Shown here piece after piece: positions 4,199-28,020 of a DNA stretch of 64,000 nucleotides. The position numbers were made by a program, and so were the translations under genes. Source of the DNA: Nitrospirota bacterium (lineage in GTDB: Bacteria; UBA2233); the NCBI GenBank assembly GCA_011620345.1, contig WOZJ01000050.1:35812-99811 (forward strand), written 5' to 3'. The notes below the pieces were generated by a model, which saw nothing but the letters and a program-made list of their open reading frames with translations, ran no database searches and had not been told where the DNA came from. Numbering within the stretch: position 1 is the stretch's first letter; each line of letters begins with the position of its first letter.

Positions 4199-5104
4199 TT
4201 GAAAATTGGCAAAAAAAATACCCTCTACGCCCTCCTTGCTTTATCCATGCTTACCGCGCCCCTCGTCTTTTTTTGGGCTGGCCGAAAGGGTTCCATAGAG
4301 AGCCTTCGTATCGAAGAGACTGGGGCCTTCGAAGTACCCCTGGGAGGAGGTGCTCCAAGGTACATTAAGGATGTTTCTCTAAGCTTACGCCCAAAATCTC
4401 CGGGCGCGCGTATCAGCATGCTGCTTACAGATACCGTAGCCTTGAAGGATAGGCTCCTAAGCGAGACAGGCTGGAGGATACCGGCCGTACTGGCCGACGG
4501 CAGTCCTTTTTTCATTCCCGTCTCCGTACAAAGGCAGGCCGAGAGCAAAACGCTCAAGTTTTGGCTGAAAGACCTGCCTTTGCCGGTAGCCGCTGGAGAG
4601 GATAAAGCACCCACCCTTGTTTTTAGCTACGAAACGGCCCCTTCCATGGAAGGGCTAAAAAACTTCGTTAGGGCACGCTATGGGTATGCACCAAGAACCC
4701 TCCCGCTTGGCCGGCCGGCGGTTGTAAGCCTTACGCTCGAGGTAGAAAAAGTCCATGGTCTCGAGGATGCCGGCATTGCCTTCTTTTTCCGGCGCGACCT
4801 TGCGGATGCGGACATCGAGGTATGCTCCGCCCCGGATACGCTCCTTGACCTTTCAACGAATGGGGCCTACCTCTTTATGGGGAAGGTTGACGATGCTTCT
4901 TTGGTGACCCTAAAACTCCGCATTACGGCCCGCAGCCAAAAGCTTGTGCGTCTTGAGCGCGCCGTAATCGTCGGCGGCTACCTCAAAGATTCCCCCTACC
5001 CAGGCGTGAAGGTTGAGGGGGCCAAACCCACCGAGCAGGTTACAAGCAGTACCGTCTCCTACCTAGGGGATATGGTCTTTCACGTTGAAAGCGCAACCCG
5101 TTAG
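4199..5104 (+). CDS. Membrane-anchored extracytoplasmic beta-rich protein, unknown function
   Basis: 301 residues from a TTG start at 4199 behind a strong GGGGGAAG ribosome site. A basic N-terminus (KIGKKN) and a hydrophobic stretch at about 10-27 give a signal anchor; the rest is soluble and strand-rich, with one cysteine ('DIEVCSAPD'). No catalytic motif is recognised. It is the last gene of the plus-strand locus starting at the window edge, 27 bp after the polytopic protein. Position suggests the extracytoplasmic component of the same transporter assembly. The family is not known to me. Confidence 0.65.
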   Translation: MKIGKKNTLYALLALSMLTAPLVFFWAGRKGSIESLRIEETGAFEVPLGGGAPRYIKDVSLSLRPKSPGARISMLLTDTVALKDRLLSETGWRIPAVLADGSPFFIPVSVQRQAESKTLKFWLKDLPLPVAAGEDKAPTLVFSYETAPSMEGLKNFVRARYGYAPRTLPLGRPAVVSLTLEVEKVHGLEDAGIAFFFRRDLADADIEVCSAPDTLLDLSTNGAYLFMGKVDDASLVTLKLRITARSQKLVRLERAVIVGGYLKDSPYPGVKVEGAKPTEQVTSSTVSYLGDMVFHVESATR

Positions 5105-5155
5105 ATTTTAAGATAGGGCCATGGCTGGACTTTGGTGTGCTTGAATGCTCCTGTC

Positions 5156-5470
5156 CTAGTCGTGACTCTTTTTTAATTCTTGAATTTCCTCCTCGACCTC
5201 GGTAGCCCCTTCTGCATAGAATTTCTCTTCATCTGGGGCAAGCTCTCTTAAGAGTCGAAGAAACTCCCCGGCATGAATTCGCTCCTCATCGGCTACATCC
5301 TTAAGAACTTCAACGGCTAATTCGTTGTCAGTTGACTCGGCTAGCTGCATGTAGAGCTGAATGGCCTCGTATTCTGCCGAAATCATGAAGCGTACTGCCC
5401 GAACCAGTTCTTCATGGGTCAGCTTACGATCGTTGGCAAGTCCTGAAAATGGATTTCCGAAATCTGGCAT
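5156..5470 (-). CDS. Encapsulated-ferritin-like (half-ferritin/rubrerythrin-like) diiron protein
   Basis: A 104-residue, mostly helical protein. The first helix carries Glu33 in 'SAEYEAIQLY' and the second carries 'DEERIH' (Glu62, Glu63, His66), the E...ExxH pattern of two-helix ferritins that assemble a four-helix diiron site at a dimer interface. Length and motif fit the EncFtn-type family, usually cargo of encapsulin nanocompartments that oxidise and store iron. No encapsulin shell gene is present in this window. It lies downstream of ald on the minus strand, separated by 152 bp. A free-standing peroxide or iron detoxification protein is the alternative. Confidence 0.75.
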   Translation of the reverse strand: MPDFGNPFSGLANDRKLTHEELVRAVRFMISAEYEAIQLYMQLAESTDNELAVEVLKDVADEERIHAGEFLRLLRELAPDEEKFYAEGATEVEEEIQELKKSHD

Positions 5471-23039: not shown

Positions 23040-23823
23040 CCCTTTTCGGTGGGCTAAGGAGGGGTTTCTAGCGTTAGGAGGCGCCCTGATCGAGCCAGAG
23101 TGCCCGTTGTGTGATACCCCCGTCTTCTTCCATCCAGGGTCATTGCTTTGCCCCGCATGCGAAAAGGATCTCTTGGCTCTTCGATTGTCCGGGCCTGTCT
23201 GCTCTTGCTGCGCCCTCCCCATTAAGGACGGTGAAACTGACCCCTGCGTTGAATGTAGGCTCGATCCGTTGGCGCTCCAAAGGACGAGCGCTTTTTTCAG
23301 CTACGAAGGGGCGGTGCGTTCCTTGCTCGTACTTTGGAAGAAGAGGGCGAACCCGTGCCTTCGGCGGTATCTTCTTCGAATATGGGCCTCAAGCTTGCAA
23401 GAAGGACTTCCGCCGTTCCCCCCAGGGGCCGTCGTGGTGGGGGTTGAGCCTCATCCAAATCGTCTCCTGGCCAGAGGGTTCGATCCTGTCCTGCCGTTTG
23501 TGCGTTCTTTGTCCAAGTCTTTTTGTATTCCAACCCTCCGCGCCCTCGTTCGAACGCACGATGCTCCCCATCAAGCCGCCCTTCCTGCCAGGGAACGCGA
23601 AAAGAACGTCAAAGGAAGCTTTCTGCTGAGGTCCGGGATGGATAGGGAGATTCAAGGCCGTCCGGTTGTGCTTGTAGATGACGTGATGACGACGGGGGCC
23701 ACGCTAAACGAGGCCGCAAAGGCCCTAAGGAAGGCCAAGCCCGGTTATATTCTAGGGGTTGTTTTTGCAAGGACGCTTAAGGGTAGGCAAGGCTTCCCCT
23801 TAATCTCGAAACCAAGGGGGTGA
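23023..23823 (+). CDS. comF: ComF-like amidophosphoribosyltransferase-fold protein
   Basis: 266 residues if started at GTG 23023, inside the rsfS end; the N-terminus of longer in-frame versions is out of character. A zinc-binding N-terminal region has 'CPLC', 'CPAC', 'CSCC' and 'CVEC' pairs. The C-terminal half is a type I phosphoribosyltransferase with the PRPP motif 'VVLVDDVMTTGATL'. In transformable bacteria ComF is a cytoplasmic competence protein, with the related GntX in others. A ComEA-like gene is also in this window at 33.6 kb, but no other competence genes are visible. Its 3' end overlaps the convergent MglA-like gene by 24 bp. Confidence 0.88.
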   Translation: MASWDSPFRWAKEGFLALGGALIEPECPLCDTPVFFHPGSLLCPACEKDLLALRLSGPVCSCCALPIKDGETDPCVECRLDPLALQRTSAFFSYEGAVRSLLVLWKKRANPCLRRYLLRIWASSLQEGLPPFPPGAVVVGVEPHPNRLLARGFDPVLPFVRSLSKSFCIPTLRALVRTHDAPHQAALPAREREKNVKGSFLLRSGMDREIQGRPVVLVDDVMTTGATLNEAAKALRKAKPGYILGVVFARTLKGRQGFPLISKPRG

Positions 23824-24423
23824 CCCCTTTTGGTCGGCGCTCGATCGTGAGACGGACTCTTTTGTGCTCTTATAGATGGCGTCAAATGTCTCGAGTACGC
23901 CTTTCCCCTCAATTGCTGCAGCCTCCACAAATGGGGCCTTCCAGGGGTTTAGCTCTGCTTCGAGCGTATGGATCGGAAGGATATCGGGGAGGTCCCGCTT
24001 GTTGTATTGAATGATGATGGGCAGGGTGTTTGGATCTTGCCCTTGTTCGCTCAGAAACCCGATAAGCTCTTCAAGGGCCGCCTTGTTGGCCGTTTTGGCT
24101 GTAGCCTGTGAGTCGTACACCATGACGATGCCATCTGCCCCCCGGAGGACAACTTTCCTTGCCTCCTTGTAAATCACTTGCCCCGGTACTGTGTAGACAT
24201 GGCAACGGGCCTTAAAGTTTCCCTCGAGCATATCTGCAACGTTCAGAAAATCGAAGAACAGCGTGCGTTCGTTGGCCGTGGGTACAATCAAAAGCTGCCT
24301 GGATTCTTTGTTTGGGAGCATGGCATGGAGCTTCTCGAGGTTGGTTGTCTTGCCCGACAGGGCCGGACCGGAGTAGACGACCTTTAAGACGACTTCCCTG
24401 TTGGCGTAGTGAATAAAAGGCAT
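23800..24423 (-). CDS. MglA-like small Ras-family GTPase
   Basis: 207 residues resembling MglA, the polarity GTPase of gliding and twitching bacteria. P-loop 'GPALSGKTT' spans residues 19-27, the switch-II motif is 'TVPGQVIYKEAR' (no classical DxxG Asp), and the base-recognition motif is 'NKRD'. The early segment 'ANREVVLKVVYSGPALSGKT' is very typical. No MglB roadblock partner lies next to it, although MglA needs one as GAP; it may be elsewhere. It is convergent with comF, overlapping its last 24 bp. A role in cell polarity or surface motility is inferred from the family. Confidence 0.88.
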   Translation of the reverse strand: MPFIHYANREVVLKVVYSGPALSGKTTNLEKLHAMLPNKESRQLLIVPTANERTLFFDFLNVADMLEGNFKARCHVYTVPGQVIYKEARKVVLRGADGIVMVYDSQATAKTANKAALEELIGFLSEQGQDPNTLPIIIQYNKRDLPDILPIHTLEAELNPWKAPFVEAAAIEGKGVLETFDAIYKSTKESVSRSSADQKGSPPWFRD

Positions 24424-24560: not shown

Positions 24561-25214
24561 TCATACACCCCCGGGAATATTCACATTGAAGCGGATGTAG
24601 GAGCGTTGCCAAAGCTCCCCGATTTCGGGAACCAGGTTGACGCCTTTGATTTCCGCAAGGCCTGCATGAACTTCAATTCCGCTGACAGAGCCGTTATCGA
24701 TGCGTATGCGCCGAAACTCTTTTAGTGGAAGCTTCATATAATAGGCAAGGGCCGTACGGATGACGTCTCCGTGCGAAACGACAGCGAACGCTGCGACAGG
24801 CCGCTCTTTGGATGCCTCTTCGAGAAAGGCTACGGCGCGTTCCTGGACCCGGATGATCGGCTCGATTCCTTGCCCTGGGTTGAAGGAGGGGTCTTTTAAG
24901 TAGCGGAAGTAATTAGGGTCTTCTTTGAGTTCCGAAAAAAGCCTGCCTTCCCAGACCCCGTAACCCACCTCGCAGAGCGCTTGAGCGGGGGTAGGATCAA
25001 GAAGAAGTTCTTTGGCAATGATTTCTGCGCTCTCCGTGGTCCTAGGATAGGGAGAACAGTACACCCTTTCGATCGGTAACCCCTTGAGCACCCGGGCGGC
25101 CCACCGCATCTGAGTCTTTCCCGATTCATTGAGGCCCACCCAGGACGTTCCCATGACGCGCTGGGCCTTGTTCCAGTCTGTTTCCCCATGTCGAACGAGA
25201 ACAATGAGCCCCAT
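24561..25214 (-). CDS. Histidine phosphatase family protein (phosphoglycerate-mutase-like)
   Basis: 217 residues. The phosphate-accepting His lies in 'LVRHGETDWN' near the N-terminus, with 'YCSPYPRTTESAEII', Glu in 'EVGYGVWEG' and the second His in 'AVVSHGDVIRTAL'. This is the cofactor-dependent phosphatase/GpmB-like group, distinct from the true GpmA at 45.9 kb. Substrate unknown: a sugar phosphate, alpha-ribazole phosphate or nucleotide. Its ATG follows the thyX stop with no intervening base, so the two are coupled. Confidence 0.88.
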   Translation of the reverse strand: MGLIVLVRHGETDWNKAQRVMGTSWVGLNESGKTQMRWAARVLKGLPIERVYCSPYPRTTESAEIIAKELLLDPTPAQALCEVGYGVWEGRLFSELKEDPNYFRYLKDPSFNPGQGIEPIIRVQERAVAFLEEASKERPVAAFAVVSHGDVIRTALAYYMKLPLKEFRRIRIDNGSVSGIEVHAGLAEIKGVNLVPEIGELWQRSYIRFNVNIPGGV

Positions 25215-25952
25215 CTAGTCCTCCGCCAAAAAAACGTCTTGCTTATGAGGGCGGGCTTTTGAGAGGGGGCATTTCTTGTATGCCTCGTAAGGCTCGTCGC
25301 AAAAGCCTTGCCTTGCAGGCCCGCACTTGGGCTGCAGGAAGACTCCTAACAAAGGGGCGGCTTTTTTGACCTCTCTACGCATCCCGAGGGCCAGCCTTCG
25401 AATCTCCCATTGCGCTCGGAAGCAAAGCCTTAAATCGGCGATGTGCAACAATTCGGCGTAGTTCACGCAGACTTGGATGTTGGATACGACGGCTTGAGGT
25501 AGGATAAACCGCGCATCCTCTGCAGGAATCCCCGCCTGAAGCGCCTTTTGGTACAACTCAAAGGATTCCAGCATGTGGGCTTTGTAGGCCTCGGAAAGAG
25601 GGCCTTGCTGCCAAGTCTTGGGAGTGGCAAACATTTTTTTTGGATCTTCCGAATCGAGCTTAATGTAGCGCTGGGATTGCTGTTCGAAGCTGATTCCGAT
25701 ACGATGGCGGACAAGCTGGTGGGAGGCTGTCCTAGAGAGTCCTTCGATTCCAAACCAAAACACTATCTGCTCCAAAGGAGACGTATGGCCCGTTTTGAGC
25801 CGCTCCAGAATAAACGCCTGAAGCTTTTCGGGAGAGTTTTCCCCGGCCTCTTCCCAAATTTCTATCGGGGATTTCTTCGAGTAGCAGGTTCTGTAAGCCA
25901 CGTACAGCATGCGTAGCGGCTCCGGGGTATAGGAAAGCATGCGAACATGCAA
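25215..25952 (-). CDS. thyX: Flavin-dependent thymidylate synthase
   Basis: Makes dTMP from dUMP with FAD, methylene-THF and NADPH. 245 residues. The ThyX signature RHRxxSxxxxSxR is present as 'RHRIGISFEQQSQRY' from residue 82, and 'TGHTSPLEQIVFWF' is the conserved upstream segment. The probable start is TTG at 25952 behind AAAGGAAG; ATG at 25940 is possible. ThyX is common in anaerobes and thermophiles and replaces ThyA. Coupled to the histidine phosphatase gene. Confidence 0.95.
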   Translation of the reverse strand: MHVRMLSYTPEPLRMLYVAYRTCYSKKSPIEIWEEAGENSPEKLQAFILERLKTGHTSPLEQIVFWFGIEGLSRTASHQLVRHRIGISFEQQSQRYIKLDSEDPKKMFATPKTWQQGPLSEAYKAHMLESFELYQKALQAGIPAEDARFILPQAVVSNIQVCVNYAELLHIADLRLCFRAQWEIRRLALGMRREVKKAAPLLGVFLQPKCGPARQGFCDEPYEAYKKCPLSKARPHKQDVFLAED

Positions 25953-26023
25953 CCTAGTCTTCCTTTGTGGTTTTAGGGTAAGCTTTTGTATCTCTGTACT
26001 ACCGTTTAAGTGTAACCAAGGTT

Positions 26024-26833
26024 GTGGGTTCGAGTCTATCTCTTCTAAGAATGTGTAAATGGCTTAAGCAGCCACGGGTTTTACCTCGGGTTATTGTTGG
26101 CTTGGCCTTAAGCCTTGCCGTTCTTTTGGCCATCGGCGTCGGTACCTTTTTCGGGGTTCGTTCCTTCTACAGGAGTATACCCAGCCAGCTGATTCAGTAC
26201 GAAATGGACGTAGAGGCCATGGCCAAGCCTCTGGCCCCGGTATCCGTACGCTCCGAGCTGGGTGATTTTGAGATCCCCATCAAACTTCCGGAAGTCGTAC
26301 GCATTGCAGTCCCCGTCCGTAAGGTATTGGACGTTCCTGTAAAAGAAGAGTTTCAGGTGCCCGTGAACATGACGGTTCATGTGCCCATTGATCAGGAGGT
26401 TTTCATCAAAGCGGAGTTTCCCCTTGAGGTTTCCGTACCGCTCGATGGTATCCGCCTCAAGGCGCGCCCTTTCGGCTTGCCGGCCATCCCGGCGACTCTT
26501 CAAGGCTCGCTGCCCCTCAAGCTGACCGTGCCCTTTGCAAGGACGGTTCGCATCAAAACAGACGTCGAGGTTCCAATAAGGCGCGTCTTCACGGTTCCTT
26601 TTAGTAAGACGCTCCAAGTGCCCCTGAATTTTGATCTAACCCTCGACCTCCCGATTCAACGCCTCATTCAGGTCCACTTCGACGGGCCGCTCAAGCTCAA
26701 GGCCAAGATTACCGAGGAGATGCCCGTGCGCGCGCGGTTTCGCGTGGGCCTTACAAAAGACGGCAGGATCGCGGTAGATCAGCCTTCTACCGCACCCAAA
26801 AAAAGGGGGGCAGAGTCGGCTCTGCCCCCTTGA
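26024..26833 (+). CDS. Signal-anchored protein built of VP-octapeptide repeats
   Basis: 269 residues from GTG 26024 (ATG at 26051 is an alternative; neither has a good ribosome site). A basic segment and a TM helix (about 22-44) are followed by an extracytoplasmic part with almost no cysteine. That part is dominated by an 8-residue repeat V-P-hydrophobic-x3-hydrophobic-x: VP occurs at 96, 104, 112 and 120, and again at 183, 191 and 199, exactly in register. Looser copies fill the space between. The periodic Pro and alternating hydrophobics suggest short beta strands in a solenoid or barrel-like array. I do not recognise the family. Its last codons form a terminator hairpin for the convergent fad genes. 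Confidence 0.75.
   Translation: MGSSLSLLRMCKWLKQPRVLPRVIVGLALSLAVLLAIGVGTFFGVRSFYRSIPSQLIQYEMDVEAMAKPLAPVSVRSELGDFEIPIKLPEVVRIAVPVRKVLDVPVKEEFQVPVNMTVHVPIDQEVFIKAEFPLEVSVPLDGIRLKARPFGLPAIPATLQGSLPLKLTVPFARTVRIKTDVEVPIRRVFTVPFSKTLQVPLNFDLTLDLPIQRLIQVHFDGPLKLKAKITEEMPVRARFRVGLTKDGRIAVDQPSTAPKKRGAESALPP
26309..26404 (+). repeat. In-frame coding repeat, 24-bp period (VP octapeptides)
   Basis: Four consecutive protein octads (residues 96-127 of the anchored protein) each begin Val-Pro-aliphatic. The period is exact at protein level, but the DNA copies have diverged, so this is an old repeat maintained by selection rather than a recent slippage array. A second run of three lies at about 26570-26641. 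Confidence 0.7.
26798..26830 (-). terminator. Rho-independent terminator of the fadN-fadA transcript
   Basis: A perfect 10-bp GC-rich stem, GGGGGCAGAG (26806-26815) with CTCTGCCCCC (26820-26829) and a TCGG loop. On the minus strand it is followed by a run of seven T (complement of 26798-26804). It begins just after the fadA stop and lies wholly inside the last codons of the convergent VP-repeat gene, which encode 'KKRGAESALPP'. Confidence 0.85.
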
Positions 26834-26838
26834 TGCCC

Positions 26839-28020
26839 CTAGTCTTTGTGCTCGAAGAGCCCGGCGGCCCCCATTCCGCCGCCTACGCACATCGTGACGA
26901 TCCCGTATTTGAGGTCGTTGTCGCGCATATGGTAGAGAATCTTGGTCGAAAGGATCGCGCCCGTCGCCCCCAAGGGGTGTCCTAGCGCGATTGCGCCGCC
27001 GTAAGGGTTGAGCTTCCGGCTCTCTAGGAAGCCCTCGAGCCCTAATTTCTTTACACAGTACACGCTCTGGGAGGCGAACGCCTCGTTCATCTCGATTGCA
27101 TCGATCTCTTTGAGCTTTAGATCCACCTTGGCCAAAAGCTTTGGCACGGCCAACGAAGGGCCGATTCCCATTTCATCTGGACCGCAGCCTACCGTCATAT
27201 ACCCTTTGAAGCGCCCTAGCGGCTTGAGCCCTAAGTCCTTCGCTTTATCCTTGCTCATCAAAACGACGGCCGCCGCCCCGTCGGTCATCTGGGATGAGTT
27301 TCCCGCCGTGACCGTCCCTTCTTTCCAGAAGGCCGGTTTAAGCTTAGAGAGCGCTTCTATCGAGGTGTCCCTGCGCGGTCCTTCGTCCGTGTCGAACTGA
27401 AAGAACTCCTTGCCCCCGGTGGGTTTGTAGCGGTAAGCCTGGACGGGGACGATCTGCTCCTTGAAAACCCCTTTGTCGATCCCTTCGACGGCAAGAAGGT
27501 TGCTTCTTAGGCCGAGCGCATCCTGCTCTTCGCGGGTTATATTGTAACGCTTGGCCACGATCTCGGCCGTTTCTCCCATGCCAACGTATGCGGGGTAGAA
27601 CTCTTCGGCCATTTCAGGGTGCGGAACAATCCTGTTCCCGCCCATAGGTATAAGGCTCATGCTCTCGATGCCGCCGGCTACGACGATCTCGGCCATTCCA
27701 GACATAATCCGAAAGGCGCCCAAAGCGATCGCCTCCAGCCCGGAAGCGCAGAAGCGGTTGATGGTCATGCACGAGACCGAATTAGGCAGTTTTGCACGAA
27801 ACCAGGCCTCTCTAGCCAGGTTCATGCCCTGCTCGGCCTCCGGCATGGCACAGCCTATGATGCAGTCGTCCACGAGCTTCGGGTCTAAGTCGCCCGCACG
27901 CTTCAAGGCTTCGAGAATGACCGCGGCGCCCATATCCTCCGGACGAACATCGGCTAGGGATCCCTTTTTGGCCCGGCCCATCGCCGTCCGTGCGGCCGAA
28001 ACGACCATTGTTTTTTCCAT
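26839..28020 (-). CDS. fadA: Acetyl-CoA acyltransferase (3-ketoacyl-CoA thiolase)
   Basis: 393 residues, last step of beta-oxidation: thiolytic release of acetyl-CoA. Nucleophile Cys in 'NRFCASGLEAI', 'MNEAFASQ', 'GHPLGATGA' and the second Cys in 'CVGGGMG' are all intact, in contrast to the thiolase-like protein at 8.0 kb. ATG start behind GAAGGGGGAAA. Lies 24 bp after fadN; together they form the multifunctional beta-oxidation complex. A clear terminator follows. Confidence 0.93.
   Translation of the reverse strand: MEKTMVVSAARTAMGRAKKGSLADVRPEDMGAAVILEALKRAGDLDPKLVDDCIIGCAMPEAEQGMNLAREAWFRAKLPNSVSCMTINRFCASGLEAIALGAFRIMSGMAEIVVAGGIESMSLIPMGGNRIVPHPEMAEEFYPAYVGMGETAEIVAKRYNITREEQDALGLRSNLLAVEGIDKGVFKEQIVPVQAYRYKPTGGKEFFQFDTDEGPRRDTSIEALSKLKPAFWKEGTVTAGNSSQMTDGAAAVVLMSKDKAKDLGLKPLGRFKGYMTVGCGPDEMGIGPSLAVPKLLAKVDLKLKEIDAIEMNEAFASQSVYCVKKLGLEGFLESRKLNPYGGAIALGHPLGATGAILSTKILYHMRDNDLKYGIVTMCVGGGMGAAGLFEHKD

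Follow-up and report, generated by a model that had tools for sequence, protein, structure and literature searches.

What kind of structure is built by a bacterial protein in which Val-Pro (VP) recurs every eight residues behind a membrane anchor? The protein is encoded in a 64,000-nucleotide stretch of DNA from a member of the Nitrospirota, referred to here in its whole length as the window. The source genome (G000) is 1.8 Mb in size, a record encoding the same protein is named Nitrospirae bacterium UBA2233, and the genomes available for comparison included one other member of the phylum (G001). It had earlier been proposed from the nucleotide sequence that the repeat forms a new β-solenoid or β-barrel-like fold on the outer face of the membrane (here called the original prediction).

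Gene, neighbors, and orthologue

The gene is a single cistron that lies between a divergent and a convergent neighbor.

25215-25952, minus strand: ThyX gene, the divergent neighbor
26024-26833, plus strand: protein-coding gene from the list of open reading frames (ORFs), with a GTG start and 269 amino acids
26806-26829, minus strand: terminator-like hairpin with a T-run, inside the 3' end of the ORF, which fits the convergent thiolase gene
26839-28020, minus strand: thiolase/acetyl-CoA acyltransferase gene, the convergent neighbor

Terminator-like hairpins numbered two against 2.0 expected, which makes this feature a weak one. No tRNA was found in the window, and a search of window positions 25000 to 28000 gave no Rfam family. 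A gene for an MglA-like small GTPase, recognized by eye, lies nearby at 23800-24423.

An orthologue (L004/L005) is flanked identically, by ThyX and a thiolase-like gene, and shares 94% amino acid identity with the window protein in the core (175 of 187 residues, 12 differences). The core is under purifying selection, with a dN of 0.031, a dS of 0.237, and hence a dN/dS ratio of ~0.13 between the two proteins. The DNA of the anchor and linker (26045-26226) is 56% identical to that of the orthologue, compared with 90 to 96% in the flanks on either side, and dS is 1.17 in this region versus 0.24 in the core. The membrane anchor looks as if it had been swapped between relatives.

The Val-Pro octapeptide repeat

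The translation confirmed VP at residues 96, 104, 112, and 120 and again at 183, 191, and 199, each followed, as had been claimed, by an aliphatic or aromatic residue (V, V, V, and I in the first run; I, F, and L in the second).

26309-26404, plus strand: first octapeptide run, residues 96-127 (VPVRKVLD VPVKEEFQ VPVNMTVH VPIDQEVF)
26570-26641, plus strand: second octapeptide run, residues 183-206 (VPIRRVFT VPFSKTLQ VPLNFDLT)

Two further VP dipeptides at residues 138 and 169, which were absent from the original prediction, are off the 8-residue register and bring the total to nine. Five VP-VP pairs are spaced exactly eight residues apart, a number reached by 0 of 20,000 shuffles of the core and, in a control in which VP dipeptides were kept whole, again by 0 of 20,000. 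The copies have indeed diverged at the DNA level, sharing only 7 to 14 of 24 bases and encoding VP by five different pairs of codons, and the claim that the pattern is under selection is borne out by the low dN/dS ratio of the core and by the orthologue of UBA2233, which retains every VP. On the strength of the shuffle result, the diverged DNA copies, and the conservation in the orthologue, the octapeptide repeat is real, old, and constrained.

Within the 8-residue units, positions 1, 3, and 7 are hydrophobic in 95 to 100% and positions 4, 6, and 8 are polar in 80 to 90%, while position 5 is polar in about 40 to 45%; no glycine occupies a fixed unit position. The strict period of eight is one local expression of a wider rule, that of hydrophobic/polar alternation.

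Alternation blocks and proline phase

Two-phase Viterbi segmentation and a parity table divide the core (residues 81 to 245) into two unbroken alternation blocks and one central loop.

26264-26446, plus strand: alternation block 1, residues 81-141, even positions hydrophobic and odd positions polar or proline
26447-26482, plus strand: central loop, residues 142-153, GIRLKARPFGLP, at which the hydrophobic parity switches; 12 of 12 residues are identical in the orthologue
26483-26758, plus strand: alternation block 2, residues 154-245, odd positions hydrophobic

The segmentation extends the phase of block 2 to residue 269, and its end is set here at 245. The parity-coherent blocks are thus 61 and at least 92 residues long, whereas the longest among 291 background ORFs is 41, and the hydrophobic autocorrelation flips sign from one lag to the next, undiminished up to lag 16. 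Valine, isoleucine, and leucine make up ~67% of the hydrophobic phase. An aliphatic face of this kind is what would be needed by amphipathic β strands spread flat over the membrane surface with their hydrophobic phase inserted in the lipid, but such strands would explain neither the central loop nor the limited range of unit lengths, and the 40 to 45% polarity of unit position 5 also speaks against them; we consider this arrangement improbable.

All prolines that the window protein has in the two blocks, counted to residue 245, are in the polar phase. Across 16 nonredundant family members, proline makes up 21% of the residues in the polar phase and 0.8% of those in the hydrophobic phase, a 26-fold enrichment compared with 9-fold for aspartate; because the hand-trained segmentation counts proline as "not hydrophobic" (its only score for this residue), this enrichment is partly, though not wholly, built in. 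A mirror symmetry of the prolines about the central loop, as in an up-and-down hairpin, was considered and rejected: four exact pairs were found about residue 148.5, but 31% of spacing shuffles reach four pairs and other members do no better.

Membrane anchor and topology

The protein is membrane anchored, as the original prediction held, by a single hydrophobic stretch near its N terminus.

26090-26146, plus strand: transmembrane anchor, residues 23-41, hydropathy 2.50, no lipobox seen

AlphaFold2 (AF2) placed a helix at residues 20 to 50 (26081-26173), with a pLDDT of about 83 to 86 over residues 21 to 40. Five lysine or arginine residues precede the anchor and two stand just after it, so that by the positive-inside rule the N terminus is in and the repeats are out. 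Since the source genome encodes Omp85 and LptD proteins, "out," or the outer face of the membrane in the original prediction, here means the periplasm.

A single N-terminal anchor followed by a β-type domain with one continuous hydrophobic face would also suit a monomeric lipid-binding groove like those of LptC, AsmA, or YdbH, in which that face would carry or shield lipid at the outer leaflet of the inner membrane, and the organism does have LptD. Even unit lengths are a requirement of parallel multichain fibers and of solenoids, and in antiparallel sheets with tight turns the phase usually changes at each turn. The latter counts against a groove made of such sheets, as the window protein has one parity switch in 165 residues. 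There is also no Pfam match to the LptC, AsmA, or YdbH-like families, and similar proteins occur in genomes in which neither LptD nor Omp85 was found. We give the lipid-binding groove a modest chance.

Database searches

The window protein matched no Pfam, NCBIfam, or PHROGs family up to an E value of 10, and it matched no PDB sequence, so that no solved fiber was recovered by sequence. When 24 family members were compared with Pfam and NCBIfam, only scattered weak matches appeared, none of them widely common. LEA_2 (PF03168) was matched by 1 of the 24 (E value of 0.025; 15.5 bits, below the cutoff of 25.4) and not by the window protein, and bactofilin (PF04519) by 1 of the 24 (E value of 0.12; 13.1 bits, below the cutoff of 27.9); both assignments were rejected. 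No relative was found in the viral contigs scanned, and two matching phage records proved to be chromosomal Acinetobacter contigs with gapA, obgE, and proB rather than phage. With its gapA, obgE, and proB genes, the record L058 (CAKLQF020000007.1), listed under the name "Acinetobacter phage MD-2021a," resembles a chromosomal contig.

Two matches within the source genome (L002 and L003) were discarded because of internal stops, and two low-scoring matches (L012 and L013) were discarded as wrong-frame readings of other repeat genes. The repeats in these last two records are of the VYGNAxVYGDA type and a P/E-rich N-terminal region on an apparent signal recognition particle receptor (FtsY) gene. 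A literature search turned up nothing relevant on the protein family and, for Acinetobacter obgE, nothing on the adjoining gene pair described below.

Relatives in other phyla

The family was found in only 6 genomes of a 386-genome survey and is thus sporadic. A chromosomal gene of Acinetobacter baumannii was matched by the window protein (tblastn E value of 5e-4, 23% identity); this gene and a tandem paralogue lie just before obgE (L006:3893-4627 and 4660-5313; CP040041.1). The first of the two, the gene matched, is annotated as an "MFS transporter," a name without support in its sequence. Like the window protein, the Acinetobacter pair have an N-terminal anchor, mostly evenly spaced motifs of a proline between two hydrophobic residues (h-P-h), and long alternation blocks (84 plus 88 residues and 151 residues); unlike it, they are encoded by two tandem paralogous genes, and the spacing of 8 mostly gives way to 6, 10, 12, and 16.

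With the Acinetobacter protein as the query, matches were found in G288, a genome of a rare phylum, and in G332. The G288 protein (L009:949-1809) resembles the window protein in its anchor and VPI repeats and differs from it in having probably two N-terminal hydrophobic segments; its gene, unlike that of the window, stands directly before an ABC transporter ATPase gene. The phylum of G332 is probably Chloroflexota, judging from gene content and the absence of Omp85, and 23 of its 151 genomes encode such a protein. Neither Omp85 nor LptD was found in the genomes of this phylum that were tested. In one family of the phylum (L033 to L043), the gene belongs to a conserved cassette, with two M16 peptidase genes adjoining it and a likely holo-ACP synthase gene further on. 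Genes for such proteins otherwise stand by themselves or have differing neighbors, and no co-conserved partner gene was found across phyla.

Homology was controlled with full shuffles and with harder shuffles that preserve the pattern of hydrophobic, proline, and other residues. Alignment scores to the relatives were far above those of full shuffles. The window protein aligned with the G288 protein at z scores of 3.6 and 4.1, each reached by 0 of 200 pattern-keeping shuffles, and with the first Acinetobacter protein at a z score of 1.5 in the pattern shuffle (19 of 200) and 2.9 in a unit shuffle (3 of 200). The alignments support homology with the G288 protein and, less firmly, with the Acinetobacter pair, for which the case is borderline. 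The scores of the window protein against the putative Chloroflexota proteins were mostly no better than those of pattern-keeping shuffles, so that shared descent is inseparable here from a shared pattern, and this group may share a common structural principle rather than an ancestor.

Distant relatives do not keep the exact 8-residue register on which the original prediction was built, and spacings of 6, 8, 10, 12, and 14 are mixed among them; the check proposed with that prediction, whether homologues retain the period of eight, thus fails in its literal form. What is kept is the two-residue register, with a varying number of units. Among 165 spacings between neighboring h-P-h motifs (24 proteins, spacings of 4 to 24 residues), 155 are even and 10 are odd, the commonest being 6 (71 cases), followed by 8 (33 cases).

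Structure prediction and likeness to viral fibers

From two sequences, AF2 returned a pLDDT of 38.4 for the whole protein and 30.0 for the core, the core model being all β without confidence. These models are uninformative about the proposed β-solenoid or β-barrel fold, for which there was no PDB sequence match either. In favor of a monomeric β-solenoid with three sides of 6 to 8 residues per coil, the unit lengths of shorter proteins in the family can be read as triads of 6, 6, and 8, and even units would preserve the in/out register round the coil. Solenoids are, however, often predicted well by AF2 from few sequences, and proline placed midstrand, as it is in most strands here, would interrupt the ladder of stacked hydrogen bonds in a solenoid and deprive a barrel of backbone hydrogen bonds as well; we assign the solenoid only a small likelihood.

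The very low AF2 confidence and the 22 prolines within residues 69 to 245 would fit a disordered or polyproline-rich linker, the outcome that the original prediction had set against its own, in which there would be a pattern without a fold. Such a linker is unlikely in view of the strict two-residue alternation over 165 residues, the identical central loop, and the strong purifying selection in the core, which is absent from the anchor. As far as can be read from the sequence, the strong alternation and the units of 6 or 8 residues point to an extracytoplasmic β repeat instead.

The closest layout among known fibers is that of the Orsay virus CP-δ β-bracelet, in which 5-residue strands of the form (V/L)-x-V-x-V alternate with 3-residue polar loops in a pentameric fiber that follows an N-terminal coiled coil (PMC7565637). 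The window protein likewise has an 8-residue unit made of an h-x-h-x-h strand and a 3-residue polar loop, and its repeat, too, follows an N-terminal helix. Residues 94 to 127 fit this layout (IAVPV-RKV LDVPV-KEE FQVPV-NMT VHVPI-DQE), although the fit is confined to the octapeptide runs, the third loop position of RKV is a valine, and the other units have 6 residues. The window protein differs from the bracelet in the proline within its strand, the mixture of 6- and 8-residue units, the central parity switch, and the membrane anchor, and no sequence relationship was found.

The triple-stranded β-helix of phage T4 has 8 residues per turn in gp5 and ~6 in gp12 (PMC3004832), an even register like that of the window protein, and gp12 has the hydrophobic interior that is proposed here for the window fiber. 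The gp5 repeat carries glycine at position a and valine at position g, in contrast to the h-P-h motif, and neither protein matched by sequence; the likeness is one of repeat layout.

A candidate periplasmic stalk

The reading that we prefer, tentatively and at less than even likelihood, is a membrane-tethered periplasmic β stalk of several chains with a structural role. The protein would be a single-pass inner-membrane protein with a cytoplasmic N terminus that displays its repeat stalk in the periplasm. Each unit would consist of a short strand, h-x-V-P-h, and a short polar link (FQVPV-NMT, VHVPI-DQE, LDVPV-KEE), and because the units, of 6 or 8 residues, would always be even, hydrophobic side chains would face one side and prolines the other. 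The hydrophobic side would form the inside of a fiber or groove. Several chains would then make up a thin fiber with a hydrophobic core, like the Orsay δ β-bracelet or the gp5/gp12 triple β-helix, their transmembrane helices bundled in the membrane, and the stalk would be a structural spacer or tether from membrane to cell wall.

The analysis establishes the anchor, the alternation, the phase of the prolines, the even spacing, and the conservation, and from these we infer the β structure, the oligomerization, and the stalk role; the stalk is probably oligomeric. A multichain fiber is preferred to a solenoid on two arguments, both weak: proline in most strands disfavors a stacked ladder, and AF2 recognized no solenoid. 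The lack of a partner gene common to the relatives suits a structural role rather than one in a pathway, and an outer-membrane job would not be the general one, as the putative Chloroflexota genomes tested were without Omp85 and LptD. Counting against the stalk are AF2 models without confidence, the lack of a sequence match to a solved fiber, and the want of a partner gene.

A bolder extension, which we regard as having a rather low likelihood, is that these proteins represent a new class of membrane-tethered β fiber or ribbon in unrelated bacterial phyla, whether or not these have an outer membrane. The polar-phase prolines would then leave every strand with one free edge, and an even unit length (6 or 8) would be the only rule selected. 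The rules of even spacing and proline phase lend themselves to simple detection of such proteins by sequence and predict structure in clear terms. The family, which has no Pfam, NCBIfam, or PHROGs match, looks like a membrane-anchored counterpart, in cells, of the β fibers of viruses, and if the fiber reading is true, several bacterial phyla would possess a thin stalk of protein whose type has so far been described in viruses.
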